IMG/VR virus record: IMGVR_UViG_3300031787_000016
Location: 83,779 to 147,778 of that record
Strand: one strand, 5' to 3'
Length of the DNA: 64,000 bases
Source of the DNA: a virus
The position numbers were made by a program, and so were the translations under genes. The notes under the pieces are model-generated. The model was not told the origin of the DNA. It saw only the letters and a program-made list of their open reading frames with translations, and made no database searches. Positions 1,923 to 35,495 of this stretch are shown piece by piece. Within the stretch, counting starts at the first letter, position 1; each line of letters opens with the position of its first letter.

Positions 1923-2252
1923 TTGGCTCGATTCAAAGTTCAAATTAAAGACAGTATACTCAAGCAGCCAGTCAAGCGCTACATTCCGCCTGAGACTATT
2001 GGTGTTCAGTTCTTGATTGACTTTGCTTTGTGCGATGCTAAGAATCCACTGACCATCGAGTACTTAAAGGTCATTATGCCATCAGAAAAGAATGTTGTGG
2101 CGGCTAATGCTGTGATGGTGTGGATAGTTCCGCATAAAAAACTTGACTTGAAGCTATATAGTCCGAAGCAGAGCGTGATAGAGTACATAGACAATAACCA
2201 AGTGCCTTACGGCGTGCAGAAAAAGGAAATCTTGAGAACTGATGAGCAATAA
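1923..2252 (+). CDS. Hypothetical protein, 109 aa
   Basis: Frame runs from a TTG at 1923 (an in-frame stop lies just upstream, so no earlier start exists) to 2252. It overlaps the start of the putative small terminase by 11 nt, which supports coupled translation. No clear ribosome binding site precedes the TTG. The sequence is basic at its N-terminus (FKVQIKDSILKQPVKRYIPP) and has no membrane segment. I do not recognise a family. Its position beside terminase genes suggests a packaging or head role, but that is only context. Confidence 0.55.
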   Translation: MARFKVQIKDSILKQPVKRYIPPETIGVQFLIDFALCDAKNPLTIEYLKVIMPSEKNVVAANAVMVWIVPHKKLDLKLYSPKQSVIEYIDNNQVPYGVQKKEILRTDEQ

Positions 2253-2976
2253 TAACATTGAACAAAAGCTGCAATCACTACGCAATTTGAACAGTGACCA
2301 GCCCGAAATGCAAAAAATAACTATCCATAAACTCAGCAAGACAAGCTGGGTTAATTGGACGGATATCAAACGTGCATATATTCTTGGTAAGCGTATTGAG
2401 GAGTTTGACGAGGAGACTGGGCATACGCGAATTTGGTCTGAGAGCTACAACTTAGAGGAACTGGCGCGGGAGTTTGGAGTTGGTGTTAGTCAGTTAACCA
2501 AAAAATCTGCTATCGAAGGTTGGGGCGGATTGCGCGATAGCTACTTGGCGCGAGTACAGGAGGAAGCACTTGGTACTGAGCTTGGCTATTTCACTAATGA
2601 GGAGAGCGAGACTGAGGCAAATTCGCTGGCTATTATTCGTAAGGGGATGAAGCTGATTAACTTGGGGCTAGAGCAAGAGTATGGTGACTTACTTGAGGCT
2701 GTGGACGCTGATGGAGATGTGGATTTGCGTGAATATAGTAAGGTTAACTTGAAGGCGCTGACCGAAGGAATCAAAGGATTGAAGATGCTGCATGAGATGC
2801 ATGGTAAGGTGATGGAGCAAGCACCCAAAACTAATCAGGAGCTGCTTGACCAATTGAATCGTAGTAAGACGGTAGAAAGGTTGAAGAATCCTAAAGAACG
2901 TGAGAAATTGCAAAAGGAGCTACAAAAGAAATTACAACTCCTTAGTCAGATAGAGGAGGACGATGATGAGGATTAA
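2242..2976 (+). CDS. Putative terminase small subunit / HTH DNA-binding protein
   Basis: 244 aa. Residues near 71-95 form a plausible helix-turn-helix (LEELAREFGVGVSQLTKKSA followed by EGWGGLR), the arrangement seen in phage terminase small subunits that choose the packaging site. The C-terminal third is charged and likely helical (ERLKNPKEREKLQKELQKKL) and ends in an acidic tail EEDDDED. It lies beside terL but on the opposite strand, converging with the kinase-like gene by 4 nt. A general HTH regulator is the alternative. Confidence 0.6.
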   Translation: MSNNNIEQKLQSLRNLNSDQPEMQKITIHKLSKTSWVNWTDIKRAYILGKRIEEFDEETGHTRIWSESYNLEELAREFGVGVSQLTKKSAIEGWGGLRDSYLARVQEEALGTELGYFTNEESETEANSLAIIRKGMKLINLGLEQEYGDLLEAVDADGDVDLREYSKVNLKALTEGIKGLKMLHEMHGKVMEQAPKTNQELLDQLNRSKTVERLKNPKEREKLQKELQKKLQLLSQIEEDDDED

Positions 2977-4076
2977 TCTATTTCAATTGGGCGAGGTGGT
3001 TGTCCAGATTGTCTTGCAGAATTGGCATAGGGGTCGGGAGTAGCTCCACGTTTATATTTCATTGCAGCTACACCAGCGCCAGTACCAATACCACGTTCAT
3101 CTGCAAAGTCGTTACGTCGTTTAGTACCATAATCTTTCACTTTTTGATTTAGGTCTTGATATCCTTTAGCTGCTACTTGTTTGCCTTGCTCAGCTTTCTC
3201 TCTAATAAATCTGGAGTTACCACCAATAGCAGTACCCAGTCCAGTACCGAGCGCATTACCAGCCAAACCATAACCTAACGTCTTGGCGGCTCTATCCCAA
3301 CCGTTAGTATTGGCTCTTTCTTCTTCTGTCTCAAAAACTCCAGCGCCCTTAGCTACACCTAATCCTGTACCTATAGCACTACCTATTTGACCCCCTCTTA
3401 ATGCTCCTCCAATACGAGTAGCTGCTGCATCGATGGCTGGGCTTACTGTAAATGGTGCGAAATTTGCATCCTGCGAACCGAAGTGAGCGAAATGTTGCAT
3501 CTGTTTATGTTGCGAAAAGTTTATTCTGCTATTATAGCCTGTCATAAATGGCTTACCCAACCAGTGACGAGAGTATGGATTTTTCATCTCGCCTGTATCA
3601 TATTCAACTTCAATAGGTCTTACTGAAGCATTATCCACCAATTTTAGTTGTTTTTTATTTGGGTTTGGTCTAACTACATTGCCTTCATGTATATCCATGT
3701 GACCCATACCTTTCTCGTATAGGCGATTTTGCATACGCCCTACTTGACTACCAATTTTATATTGTTCCTTTGGTGAGATTCCTTCTAGTTTGTCAGGTAA
3801 TGGCTTACCAGCATAGTCTTGCGTGTAGGAGGTCATGTTCCCTCGTTCACGGTAGTTTTGCACTGGTGGAACTAACCCTGTCGTAGAGGCTGCTTTACTT
3901 GCGTTCTCATATTCTTTCACGCTGGCGCGTCTGGCTGCTGCTTTATAGTTGGGATTGTCAGGAAGTATGTTGTCGATGCGTACCTTGTTTGTGGCAGGGA
4001 AGTGCATTACACGCTTGTCTGATGTGAGGAGAAGTGCTTTGGCGTTACGGATACGAGCGAATGAGGAAGTGTTCAT
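2973..4076 (-). CDS. Kinase-like protein fused to an MQHFAHF / glycine-rich module
   Basis: 367 aa. Residues 126-135 read HMDIHEGNVV, matching the catalytic loop H-x-D-x4-N of protein kinase-like folds, followed at 144-150 by LKLVDNA, which resembles the metal-binding segment. Residues 193-199 are MQHFAHF, the peptide that starts several neighbouring proteins. The rest has long glycine-rich, weakly hydrophobic stretches (GGQIGSAIGTGLGVAKGAG; GLAGNALGTGLGTAIGG) like glycine zippers that insert into membranes. It could be a fusion of an effector kinase and a tagged virion protein. No SD precedes M193, so a separate start there is less likely. Kinase activity is inferred. Confidence 0.65.
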   Translation of the reverse strand: MNTSSFARIRNAKALLLTSDKRVMHFPATNKVRIDNILPDNPNYKAAARRASVKEYENASKAASTTGLVPPVQNYRERGNMTSYTQDYAGKPLPDKLEGISPKEQYKIGSQVGRMQNRLYEKGMGHMDIHEGNVVRPNPNKKQLKLVDNASVRPIEVEYDTGEMKNPYSRHWLGKPFMTGYNSRINFSQHKQMQHFAHFGSQDANFAPFTVSPAIDAAATRIGGALRGGQIGSAIGTGLGVAKGAGVFETEEERANTNGWDRAAKTLGYGLAGNALGTGLGTAIGGNSRFIREKAEQGKQVAAKGYQDLNQKVKDYGTKRRNDFADERGIGTGAGVAAMKYKRGATPDPYANSARQSGQPPRPIEID

Positions 4077-5930: not shown

Positions 5931-6842
5931 TTACTGATTAGTTTTATTGCTAATTACTTTATAGTCTCCGCCAAGATTTTTGACATTTTGCCTGTAATTT
6001 CTAAAAGTGTTTAGGAAATCCTGTCTATCAGTCTCAGCATAAGTTTGGTGATTGGCATCTGAATACATTTTTTCATCTAAATGCTTAGCAATTCTTGAAG
6101 AGGGGTGTTTGCTAGTTTTATATTGTGTGATATGATTTTGACCAGTTATAGGGTTATTTGCTAAAATCAAAGATGTTGTATTAGGAGTATCGTATCTTTG
6201 ATTAGCATCCATTTGAAAATCTCTAGGTGAGGGTGTGACACCTGCAATTGTTTTTGCGTATGGTGGGTGAGTATGGATATTGACCAACGATTTCTTATCT
6301 TGTTCTGTGTTTCCACTATAGAGCTTTATTGAATGACTACCACCTCCCGTTATAGGTGTGGTTTTTAAAGTGACTCTAGGGTCATCTTTATACAATAAAG
6401 CTCCATATTCATTTTTAGGGTCTACGCTGGCTGTCTTTCTTAATTTATCTATGGTTCCCGCCAGCACAGTGTTATCTTGAGGTGTGTTCATGTAACCCTG
6501 TCTGTCGATATAGCTGTTGGATTTTATGGGGTTAGTACTACCTCTTCTGGCAGTTTGTATTGCATCTACATAACCTATCCTATCATTTAAAGGGTTTTCA
6601 GGTGTAAATTTTTCAGTTGCTGTGTAGGTTGCAGGTGTAGCAGGTTTCTTAGGGTTAAGGAAGGATAGAAGTCCTTTGTATTTAGGGGGAGGTGTAGGCA
6701 CTTCTCTTGTAACTGTTCGCCTTTGTTCTTTAGGTACTGGCGCACCTTCCTTGACATTACCTAGACCACCAAGCAGGGTAGCTTGTTTTGTTCTTGTAAA
6801 TGTTTTTCTAGCTGCGTTACTAAAATCTGCGAAGTGTTGCAT
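5931..6842 (-). CDS. MQHFADF-tagged JAB/JAMM-like metalloprotease domain protein
   Basis: Start placed at the ATG at 6842, giving N-terminus MQHFADF, the peptide shared with neighbours; an ATG 30 nt upstream would add ten residues. The C-terminal half has a JAMM-type zinc signature: NEYGALLY (candidate catalytic Glu145), IHTHP (His190, His192) and SPRD (Ser205, Asp208). The spacing between the His pair and Ser is a few residues longer than usual. JAMM enzymes cleave isopeptide or peptide bonds, and similar domains occur in bacterial toxins. The N-terminal half is Pro/Lys-rich and probably a linker. An effector carried in the virion is plausible. Confidence 0.72.
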   Translation of the reverse strand: MQHFADFSNAARKTFTRTKQATLLGGLGNVKEGAPVPKEQRRTVTREVPTPPPKYKGLLSFLNPKKPATPATYTATEKFTPENPLNDRIGYVDAIQTARRGSTNPIKSNSYIDRQGYMNTPQDNTVLAGTIDKLRKTASVDPKNEYGALLYKDDPRVTLKTTPITGGGSHSIKLYSGNTEQDKKSLVNIHTHPPYAKTIAGVTPSPRDFQMDANQRYDTPNTTSLILANNPITGQNHITQYKTSKHPSSRIAKHLDEKMYSDANHQTYAETDRQDFLNTFRNYRQNVKNLGGDYKVISNKTNQ

Positions 6843-6968
6843 AAGGGTGTTAGTTAGAACAAGTGTCTCCAATGTTTATTGTATCGCACTCGACTATGTA
6901 GGCGGGAGTCGGGGTATAGAACTTGCGGATTACTACTTAGGGTCGCTAATATTAGCTTTTTCATATTT

Positions 6969-7616
6969 TTATTTATTGGTGTACCATAATACTCGGTTAA
7001 CGTCTGGTTTAGGATTGTATCCCAATTCTTCAAGCCACACTTTTAGTTTTTGTTCTGTGACATCAGGTAGTTCAGAGAAGATGTCTGCTATGACCTTGAA
7101 CTTAATTCGCTTAGCTTTTTTATGTTGGCTGAAGTATTCGTCCAACTCATTCTGCAATAGTAATTTATAGTCTTGATGCACGTTATCACGTTTGGTTAAG
7201 GCTCGGCGCAATCCCTTGAACAGATTTGCAAAGTGGACATCCTTAGAACCAAAGAAGTCTTCGAGACGTATAGATAACTGCAAAATTACCGAATCACTCT
7301 GACCGCATATTTCTCCCCTGTAAGCCACTTTGTCGCCTATAAGGGTAAAGTCTTCGATAAGGTACTTGTAAGCGTCCATGATGAAGAACATACCTAGCTC
7401 TGTGGGTGTTACTGAATTGGTCTTGTTACTTGCAATAGCTGTTATCAGGGATTTTATTTCTGACAGTTGTTTTTGCATACTTACAACACCACCAAGAAGC
7501 ACACTGGCTAATGGTTTATCTGAGTCACTGAAAAGTCCTAAAACCCCTTCTTCATCTGTGGGATTACGCCACAGGCTTTTTTCTAGTTGGGCTACAAGCG
7601 CCGAAGTCTCGTCCAT
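6969..7616 (-). CDS. Hypothetical protein, 215 aa
   Basis: First minus-strand gene after the divergent control region. N-terminal half helical (VAQLEKSLW; VVSMQKQLSEIKSLI), C-terminal half charged and basic (FSQHKKAKRIKFKVIADIFSELPD). No catalytic motif seen, no tag peptide, no membrane segment. Upstream lies TATGCTAATATAATAATAG, a candidate promoter. I do not recognise it. Confidence 0.65.
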   Translation of the reverse strand: MDETSALVAQLEKSLWRNPTDEEGVLGLFSDSDKPLASVLLGGVVSMQKQLSEIKSLITAIASNKTNSVTPTELGMFFIMDAYKYLIEDFTLIGDKVAYRGEICGQSDSVILQLSIRLEDFFGSKDVHFANLFKGLRRALTKRDNVHQDYKLLLQNELDEYFSQHKKAKRIKFKVIADIFSELPDVTEQKLKVWLEELGYNPKPDVNRVLWYTNK

Positions 7617-7809: not shown

Positions 7810-8966
7810 ACTTAACCTATATACTTCTACTTCTTCTTCTGGAGGACAATCTTTGTGCATTTCACTGTATGTATGAATGTTCGAGTACTATCAAACAATG
7901 CTGTGATGGCGCAAACTCGTTGGTATATGTGTAGATGATTGCAGTTGCAACTATATGTTAGTGTCAGATTTACACTTAGTCGAAGCAAGTGGGGCATATT
8001 ATTTCTCTCGTATAATTCTCGTATATACGAGAAGCACACGAACAAATCCGTTCTATCTCTCGCACAAACTTCACATTCTATCTCTTAACTCATCTACTTC
8101 CCTAAGACAAATATCAGCTTATTCGTTTATATATCAGCATCAGATTGTATTATATGATACCGTATAACGTGTATATCCTACTGTATAATCATTTGAGATG
8201 ATTGATATTAAATCACTCATCCTTTTAGATTATTATATATGTTTCACTCTAATGATTATTTAACGATACTTACTATATGCAATTTGTTGCATAGCTCTAA
8301 AATCGATTTTAAGACTAGCAAAATTGCTAGGGTACAAATACTCCTGAATGTATGTAAACAAGTCTTACAGGTCAATCTAGAGGTAGCTGCTAAGCATATA
8401 TACATCTCTAGCGAATACACATACAAGCATAGAAATACATACACGCTATATTATGTTAATACGAAAATTGCAGGACTAAAAAGAATTTTCAAACTTTTTT
8501 CTCTATACACTGTAAGACTTTTAACCACTTTTATCCGTTTACATACTGCGAGGGGGCTTTACATTCTAGAGATAACCTGATAACTTAATTTACATGAGAT
8601 ACGAGATAAGCAAAGCAAGCGGTAAGACGCAAGCCAAGCGGTCGCATCTCTAGTACCTTGAAAATTGAATACACATAATTCCGACAGTTGAAAAATGCTG
8701 TATGCCTGTAAAGGGCTGTAAGGGCGTGTCGTGATGATAGCAAGTCACTAAGATATAACACTTAAGCATAAAAGCTATGATTCTAAAGTAATTTAAGATA
8801 TCTTTAGATAGCGGTTAGTTTGATAGAGTACTGAAACTATCAGCGCTTGTAATACTGATTAGGGCGCTATAACAAAACACTGCGATGACCTTAAATAATC
8901 GCGTTACTTCTTTCTGTATTCCTTACTGCGATGTAATTCACTCGCTACTATAAGGAAAATAAGATA
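7810..8966. other. Long AT-rich intergenic control region
   Basis: More than 1.1 kb with no convincing gene; the longer open frames here have Tyr/Ile/Thr-rich translations typical of random AT-rich DNA. It contains a perfect 18-bp palindrome, several short hairpins (for example TGATAG/CTATCA near 8840) and many TATA-like strings. It separates minus-strand virion-type genes from the plus-strand early-type genes, so it is probably a divergent promoter region and possibly an origin. Confidence 0.6.
8016..8033. promoter_or_regulatory. Perfect 18-bp palindrome, candidate operator
   Basis: TTCTCGTATATACGAGAA reads the same on both strands. A further half-site CTCGTATAA lies immediately upstream at about 8007, so the two CTCGTATA strings are spaced one helical turn apart. 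This is the form of a dimeric repressor site in the divergent control region. The binding protein is not identified. Confidence 0.6.
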
Positions 8967-34516: not shown

Positions 34517-35230
34517 ATGACAATAGGGATATACTACATAACTAATGTAGTCAATGGCAAGTATTATATCGGTTCTAGTCTTCATATTGAACGTAGATTT
34601 AAAGAGCATTTAAATGGACTAAATAAAAACAAGCACCATAATCGTTCTCTGCAATTCGAGTGGAATAGTTTTGGTCAATCTTCGTTTGTATTCTCGATAG
34701 TAGACAAATTATCTTCAGCTAACGCAGCTACGGTGTTTTCATTAGAGCAATTTTATTTAGATGCTGTTAAGGATTGGGCTTCGGTTTACAATATATCAAG
34801 AGACACTACAAATTGGGTATTAGGAATAAAATATAAAGACTCAAACTACTACTCTTGGAATAAAGAAAAGAAGGTATTTGTTGTAGCCTACAGAGTTAAT
34901 GGAATCCAATTGAAATTCGGGTATTTTGAAGATGAGGAAGACGCTAAATGTAAAGTAGACTATCTAAAGTCACTTACAAAATTACAACTTATTGAGTACC
35001 ATAAAAATATTGACCCATGTAAACTTACTAGGAAAAATAATAACAACTTGGTAATTATGGGAGAGGCTAGGCGGAGGTCTTTCAAGGGGTATTCTTTTGA
35101 CAAGAAAAGAAATGTTTGGAGGGTAAGGTTTCCCGTAAAGGGTAAAACAGCCAACTTTGGAAGTTTTAAGTTTGAGAAAGATGCACAAAAGAAGGTTGAA
35201 GAAATTATTTCTAATGGTAGATGTAATTAA
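34517..35230 (+). CDS. GIY-YIG homing endonuclease with AP2-like repeats, A
   Basis: 237 aa. GIYYITNVVNGKYYIGSS is the GIY...YIG core, followed by RRFKEHLNGL and the catalytic E in LEQFYLDAV. The C-terminal half has two AP2-like DNA-binding units (FVVAYRVNGIQLKFGYFEDEEDA; WRVRFPVKGKTANFGSFKFEKDA). Same architecture as 60676-61572. It ends 30 nt before the permuted tmRNA, so the tmRNA may be its home site. Confidence 0.88.
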   Translation: MTIGIYYITNVVNGKYYIGSSLHIERRFKEHLNGLNKNKHHNRSLQFEWNSFGQSSFVFSIVDKLSSANAATVFSLEQFYLDAVKDWASVYNISRDTTNWVLGIKYKDSNYYSWNKEKKVFVVAYRVNGIQLKFGYFEDEEDAKCKVDYLKSLTKLQLIEYHKNIDPCKLTRKNNNNLVIMGEARRRSFKGYSFDKKRNVWRVRFPVKGKTANFGSFKFEKDAQKKVEEIISNGRCN

Positions 35231-35260
35231 TGGTAGTTGTGTTAGTATATAAGTGTTATT

Positions 35261-35495
35261 GAGAGTTTAGGTACTTCCTTGGCTGGACAAGAGTTCGACT
35301 CTCTTGCCTTACACTTCAAGTGAGGCTAACGGTTTCGACAGGTAAGGAAGCCTAGAACACGCTGGGACTTTACGAGCGACAGCTAAAATAGCGAAAAAAT
35401 AAACGTCAACAACATCGTTTCTTTTTCTAGGAAAGCTACCCCTGTAGCCGCCTAGACCACCCGAAAGACAGTCCTAAAAACGCTGTCTTTCTCTA
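35261..35495 (+). ncRNA. ssrA: Circularly permuted (two-piece) tmRNA
   Basis: Acceptor piece first: T-arm AAGAG/CTCTT with loop TTCGACT (35289-35305) and strand GCCTTAC (35306-35312), discriminator A, 6-nt linker, then coding piece starting GTGAGGC (35320-35326), a 7-bp acceptor with one G-U. GGTTTCGACAG is the conserved tmRNA D-region. P2 forms from AAGGAAG/CTTCCTT and CCTAGA/TTTAGG across the two pieces. The tag frame 35405-35455 gives VNNIVSFSRKATPVAA, with a Val resume codon where Ala is usual. tmRNA frees stalled ribosomes and marks the protein for ClpXP. No CCA encoded. Confidence 0.93.
35463..35491 (+). terminator. Hairpin at the tmRNA 3-prime end
   Basis: GAAAGACAG and CTGTCTTTC form a perfect 9-bp stem with an 11-nt loop, then TCTATAT. 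Terminates the tmRNA transcript or forms its last stem. Confidence 0.75.

Follow-up and report, generated by a model that had tools for sequence, protein, structure and literature searches.

We propose that the DNA analysed here, a window of 64 kb that forms the end of a virus record of 147,778 bases and belongs to a virus of freshwater cyanobacteria, holds a functional permuted phage ssrA gene, whose product would be a two-piece tmRNA that rescues ribosomes via the SmpB protein of the host. We give this reading a probability of about 0.8. ARAGORN calls a permuted (two-piece) tmRNA gene at 35274-35455 (+ strand), its sole RNA gene in the window, and the Rfam model RF04321 (tmRNA_permuted; gathering score, 47) matches at 35252-35455 (+) with 62.6 bits (E = 9.9e-10), the sole Rfam 15 match in the window. 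The original prediction had placed a phage-encoded permuted tmRNA at 35261-35495, and both programs bear it out with close limits. A second assembly (L128) matches the window locus at 99.99%. The tmRNA is more than a chance resemblance, because the model match is joined by a conserved tag frame and by 100% stem pairing in five divergent versions of the gene. What the sequences show is the presence and structure of the gene, its compensatory evolution, its slot in eight genomes, and the position and core motifs of an intron found in some relatives.

The gene, all of it on the + strand, encodes the 3' strand of the acceptor stem and the T-arm ahead of the 5' strand. The acceptor (3') piece (35274-35313; ARAGORN 3' tRNA domain, RF04321, and sequence) opens with the 3' strand of P2 (CUUCCUU, 35274-35280) and continues with the T-arm AAGAG-UUCGACU-CUCUU (35289-35305), in which a stem of 5 bp (35289-35293/35301-35305) encloses the loop UUCGACU. 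It ends with the 3' strand of the acceptor stem (GCCUUAC, 35306-35312) and the discriminator A35313; CCA is not encoded. An intervening segment of 6 nt (CUUCAA, 35314-35319), delimited by sequence and the ARAGORN domain limits, leads to the 5' tRNA-like domain of the mRNA-like piece (35320-35350; ARAGORN and the RF04321 and RF01851 alignments). This domain begins with the 5' strand of the acceptor stem (GUGAGGC, 35320-35326) and contains the GGUUUCGAC loop followed by the 5' strand of P2 (AAGGAAG), as placed by ARAGORN and the Rfam alignments. The resulting acceptor stem has 7 bp, including G1:C72 and G3:U70, the latter being the alanine identity pair. The tag reading frame, VNNIVSFSRKATPVAA (35405-35455; called by ARAGORN and aligned with seven related phage tags), resumes at GUC (Val), stops at UAG, and ends in PVAA, with small hydrophobic residues at the C terminus. 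The acceptor stem, T-arm, P2, and tag frame that had been predicted are all present by sequence, ARAGORN, and Rfam, and ARAGORN returns a tag identical to the earlier reading, with its Val start and PVAA end. Past the tag, a 3' hairpin (GAAAGACAG...CUGUCUUUC, 35463-35491; sequence and fold), with equivalents in relatives, is the probable end of the transcript; a simple terminator rule makes no call on it. Upstream, TATATAA followed by GUUAUUGAG (35246-35263) is the probable -10 element and transcript start by comparison with relatives, which have TATAAT, TATATAA, or TTTATA and then the conserved GTTATTGA; here, too, a simple promoter rule makes no call.

Region alignment and synteny place a permuted tmRNA in one and the same intergenic slot in all eight genomes that span it (the window, L254, L253, L267, L415, L416, PA-SR01, and Pam2), and the tag frame, which the original prediction expected to be conserved in related phages, is open in all eight. 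L254 and Pam2 have a common tag, AKNQIVKFARKSTPVAVAV; the others are AKNNICQFSRKAAPVAA (PA-SR01), AKNNICRLVRKAAPVAV (L253), GKNSIVAFTRKSSLVVA (L267), GKSNNIVNFSRKSAVVV (L415), and ANNNIVKFARKSALVAVAV (L416; read by eye). The slot is unannotated in the Pam2 and PA-SR01 records, and ARAGORN misses both copies. A search for the closest phage that used only the tmRNA DNA as query gave no useful match and suggested at first that PA-SR01 and Pam2 lack the gene; synteny then overturned this. A profile hidden Markov model of five members, built without Pam2, L416, and L254, finds these three at E values of 1e-19 to 1e-22. Counts of phage tmRNAs are likely too low, because ARAGORN misses 5/8 copies and all but two of the eight fall under the Rfam gathering cut-off.

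Several copies have features of their own. In L267 (IMGVR_UViG_3300044646_002092, 1410-1754) the tmRNA lies in the slot on the strand opposite to its neighbours. In Pam2 (L262, reverse strand, 8860-8930) and L416 (about 1500-1580) the T-stem and acceptor stem are paired and CCA is encoded, and the T-loops read AGCAUUA and AGCAUAA in place of UUCRANY; because the UUCRA motif is absent, these two copies may be impaired, and ARAGORN calls neither. In L254, the region upstream of the complete tmRNA (6485-7170) repeats the promoter and start (TATATAAATGTTATTGAG) and also contains what is left of an acceptor piece, CCA included, a 5' fragment that resembles a tRNA, and a reading frame similar to HNH-type endonucleases. 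It looks as though the 5' part of the gene had been copied by a homing insertion.

In three relatives the T-loop is split by an insert, of 226 nt in L253, 227 nt in PA-SR01, and 218 nt in L415; the window gene is without an intron. Removal of the insert in silico, from a U at position -1 to a terminal G, restores GAGGG-UUCGAUU-CCCUC in L253 and PA-SR01 and the GUGAG...CUCAC T-stem in L415, and turns all three into genes that ARAGORN recognises as permuted tmRNAs. The spliced T-loop of PA-SR01 would read GAGGGUUCGAU up to the junction and UCCCUC after it. The trial deletions that restored the gene (23/18,615 in L253 and 21/16,575 in PA-SR01) all represent one site and length. The pairings P3, P4, P6, P7, P8, and P9 and the R/S motifs are present in the inserts, and the P9 sequence differs in L415 with six of six pairs kept. 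Model RF00028, tried on the inserts in three ways, gives no match even at E ≤ 10, so the group I identity stands on motifs, boundaries, and pairing. Local alignments of the inserts to known introns were weak and gap-ridden when set against shuffles, and we therefore adopted a scan for core motifs: within 2.78 Mb, the pair AAGGTNNAGAGACT...ANAGTCC is restricted to these inserts and to three cyanobacterial group I introns confirmed by Rfam. No convincing homologue of the introns was found among 386 cyanobacterial-phylum genomes. By these features, the assignment of the inserts to group I introns is well supported, and they look like self-splicing elements. A survey of 97,179 tmRNA sequences lists standard, intron, permuted, and CDS-less forms, 883 of the sequences being intron containing (PMC11915505). 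Our inserts resemble those introns in their T-loop site, the U at -1, the terminal G, and their length of 218-227 nt. However, L253, PA-SR01, and L415 combine intron and permutation, which the survey lists as separate forms; none of the forms given for its 97,179 sequences is both permuted and intron containing. We consider it likely that such a form exists in the phage lineage.

Is the gene in use? Compensatory rewriting of the acceptor and T stems is near complete, which indicates that the tmRNA is under selection. In five distinct versions of these stems, 60/60 cells are in standard pairs, and 10 of the 12 pairs have changed on both sides, G1:C72 and G3:U70 alone being invariant. The structure was read from the same sequences, which creates a bias towards full pairing but none towards double changes. 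None of 500 shuffles equalled the stem pairing, and sliding the columns by 1 to 3 positions destroyed it. Stems that evolve in this way speak for a tRNA-like domain that works and is charged with alanine. It also bears on the idea that the locus is a captured host gene out of use, which persists by chance or as a target for homing elements. Homing endonuclease genes do adjoin the tmRNA (GIY-YIG in the window, HNH in L254), introns invade it, the L267 copy is inverted, and the T-loop is unusual in two copies. A dead gene, however, would lose its stems and tag frames. Here both stems have been rewritten in a compensatory manner with G3:U70 kept, the tag frames are open throughout the eight genomes, and the tags of L254 and Pam2 differ by three substitutions, of which 3/3 are synonymous. 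We therefore regard disuse as very improbable.

The window phage belongs with two cultured phages. Its TerL shares 91-92% identity with the TerL proteins of PA-SR01 and Pam2, the next-best listed TerL matches being below 30%, and its ERF annealing protein is 87% identical to their counterparts. Filamentous Pseudanabaena served as the isolation host for both (PMC10286775, PMC9382816). Of the cyanobacteria challenged with PA-SR01, a single Pseudanabaena strain was lysed, and the rest, Synechococcus strains included, were not (PMC10286775); Pam2 infects P. mucicola (PMC9382816). The host strains are Pseudanabaena KCZY-C8 for PA-SR01 and P. mucicola Chao 1806 for Pam2. From this relatedness and these host ranges, the host of the window phage is most likely Pseudanabaena and not, as had been predicted from the tmRNA, of the Synechococcus/Cyanobium type. 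In the public Pam2 record (ON014754), a structural-region protein, Pam2_03 (2064-3905), bears the name of a neurotoxin, which looks like an annotation-transfer error. The tmRNA is surrounded by genes for a GIY-YIG homing endonuclease, the ERF annealing protein, a dUTPase, an exonuclease, a DnaB-like helicase, and DNA polymerase A. The GIY-YIG gene (34517-35230, +; PF01541, E = 6.1e-12; PHROG homing endonucleases) is an insertion just upstream of the tmRNA, since its flanks are kept in relatives that do not have it. Homing endonuclease genes are scattered in the phage genome (34517-35230, 47427-48599, and 60622-61572 of the window).

Which tmRNA lineage the gene comes from is a separate question. 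The original prediction read its order as that of the picocyanobacterial two-piece tmRNA; the permuted order stands, and the two also have in common GGUUUCGAC and the NNIV core of the tag, but the assignment to the picocyanobacterial lineage is not supported. Among tmRNA models, RF04321 is matched significantly, whereas the cyanobacterial two-piece model RF01851 (cyano_tmRNA; gathering score, 70 bits), although the best-scoring clade model for the window gene, reaches 67.0 bits and thus stays below its cut-off. The window gene further differs from picocyanobacterial tmRNA in its Val resume codon, its 6-nt intervening segment, and an R-K in the tag instead of R-Q: R-K occurs in 7/7 tags of the phage family and in 20/26 one-piece cyanobacterial tags, and R-Q in 14/14 picocyanobacterial tags. 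For its mRNA-like half, the score is 49.9 bits against one-piece genes and at most 32.6 bits against picocyanobacterial ones, and in a tree of the 5' piece the phage genes group with one-piece genes (100/95). The phage gene resembles one-piece cyanobacterial tmRNA (ANNIVPFARKAAPVAA and kin) in tag pattern and in the sequence of the mRNA-like half, and differs from it in gene order. The permuted model exceeds its cut-off in 36/292 cyanobacterial-phylum genomes, all 36 of at most 3.7 Mb, and the standard model does so in 246/292; all 90 genes read from the standard-model genomes are one-piece and unpermuted. From this phylum-wide pattern we infer that the tmRNA of Pseudanabaena itself is one-piece.

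A tree with an outgroup needs two changes of gene form, and a single origin of permutation has a p-AU of 0.335, so that neither count is rejected. The single origin, the permuted order, and the RF01851 score are compatible with a phage that took a two-piece tmRNA from a picocyanobacterial (Synechococcus/Cyanobium) host. The R-K tags, the mRNA-like half, and the infection of Pseudanabaena by the relatives (PMC10286775, PMC9382816) make such an uptake improbable in our judgement. Independent permutation of a one-piece cyanobacterial tmRNA is possible from the sequence comparisons. More specifically, and tentatively, the gene may have become permuted independently of the picocyanobacterial, alphaproteobacterial, and betaproteobacterial lineages and then acquired a T-loop group I intron in some members, a scenario that we hold to be conceivable rather than likely. 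If it is true, maturation of the RNA needs self-splicing and two-piece processing together, and a phage two-piece tmRNA runs beside the one-piece tmRNA of the host.

A two-piece tmRNA arises from one precursor that is cut by tRNA-processing enzymes, receives CCA, and is charged by AlaRS. SmpB delivers tmRNA to ribosomes that have come to a halt with no codon to read, and the product is sent to proteolysis by its tag. For the window gene we infer expression, processing, charging, ribosome use, and a benefit to the phage, and for the split copies also splicing. A single transcript would start near 35255, host tRNA-processing enzymes would cut it at the 6-nt intervening segment, and the acceptor stem and P2 would join the two pieces. 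In three sister phages, a group I intron would have to leave the T-loop before the acceptor piece forms. The host would add CCA, and AlaRS would charge the RNA via G3:U70. The phage record holds no SmpB gene; hence host SmpB must serve, and with it ribosomes stalled on broken mRNAs would be rescued during infection and the tag added, which in the window phage has a host-like end (PVAA) that should be competent for degradation. The rescue of ribosomes on mRNAs broken in infection is most likely the main use of the RNA.

Hijacking of rescue or proteolysis by a phage tmRNA is plausible. In one such reading, the phage RNA would mainly redirect proteolysis: it would compete with the one-piece tmRNA of the host, and a phage tag degraded differently would leave proteins spared or selectively destroyed. 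Tags ending in Val make up 14/30 of the distinct cyanophage-type tags and 0/40 of the host cyanobacterial tags (Fisher p = 7.5e-7, with rows that are non-independent), and within the phage family 4/7 tags end in V (PVAV, PVAVAV, ALVAVAV, and VVV). Such an ending may make the degradation signal weaker or different. However, the window and PA-SR01 tags end in PVAA, as host tags do, and alpha-type phage tags end in A in 51/52 cases. We thus see redirected proteolysis as an unlikely main role, and rescue remains our preferred reading. At the other end of the tag, nearly all called resume codons are GNN; GUN is rare and not unique to the window. Two other viral contigs, L049 and L072, have permuted tmRNA tags with a Val start (VEENFALAA and VNTNAMIEGF...). 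Tags of S. lacustris starting VTANNIV were not counted as cases of a Val resume codon, because ARAGORN probably misplaced their start.

Two-piece tmRNAs of phages are not new in themselves: the tmRNAs found in 18,146 phage genomes include 53 two-piece structures, nearly all aquatic (PMC9004378), and our pattern scan gave at least 120 matches. In picocyanobacteria, the tmRNA of Prochlorococcus was seen as two pieces by Northern blot (PMC1242208). The methylophage Melnitz (PMC9004378) is, like the window phage, an aquatic phage with a permuted ssrA from a tmRNA lineage unlike that of its host. Melnitz has an alphaproteobacterial-type gene and a glutamine riboswitch, whereas the window gene is of cyanobacterial type and belongs to a lineage of Pseudanabaena siphoviruses, which, unlike Melnitz, has homing endonucleases and, in three relatives, the intron. 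As far as our analysis reaches, the novelty lies in the slot that Pseudanabaena phages conserve, in the mismatch with the supposed two-piece host, in the homing endonucleases that crowd the locus, and in three relatives whose gene is both permuted and intron-split.

According to a 2014 review, the phage introns reported until then were confined to protein genes (PMC3984707); one in a phage tmRNA would widen this range. PA-SR01 and Pam2 are isolates with known hosts and an unannotated tmRNA gene, and they provide a system that can be tested in culture. It allows one to ask whether a rescue RNA is made by the phage itself, by what steps a permuted and intron-split gene matures, and whether the phage tag alters the fate of proteins.
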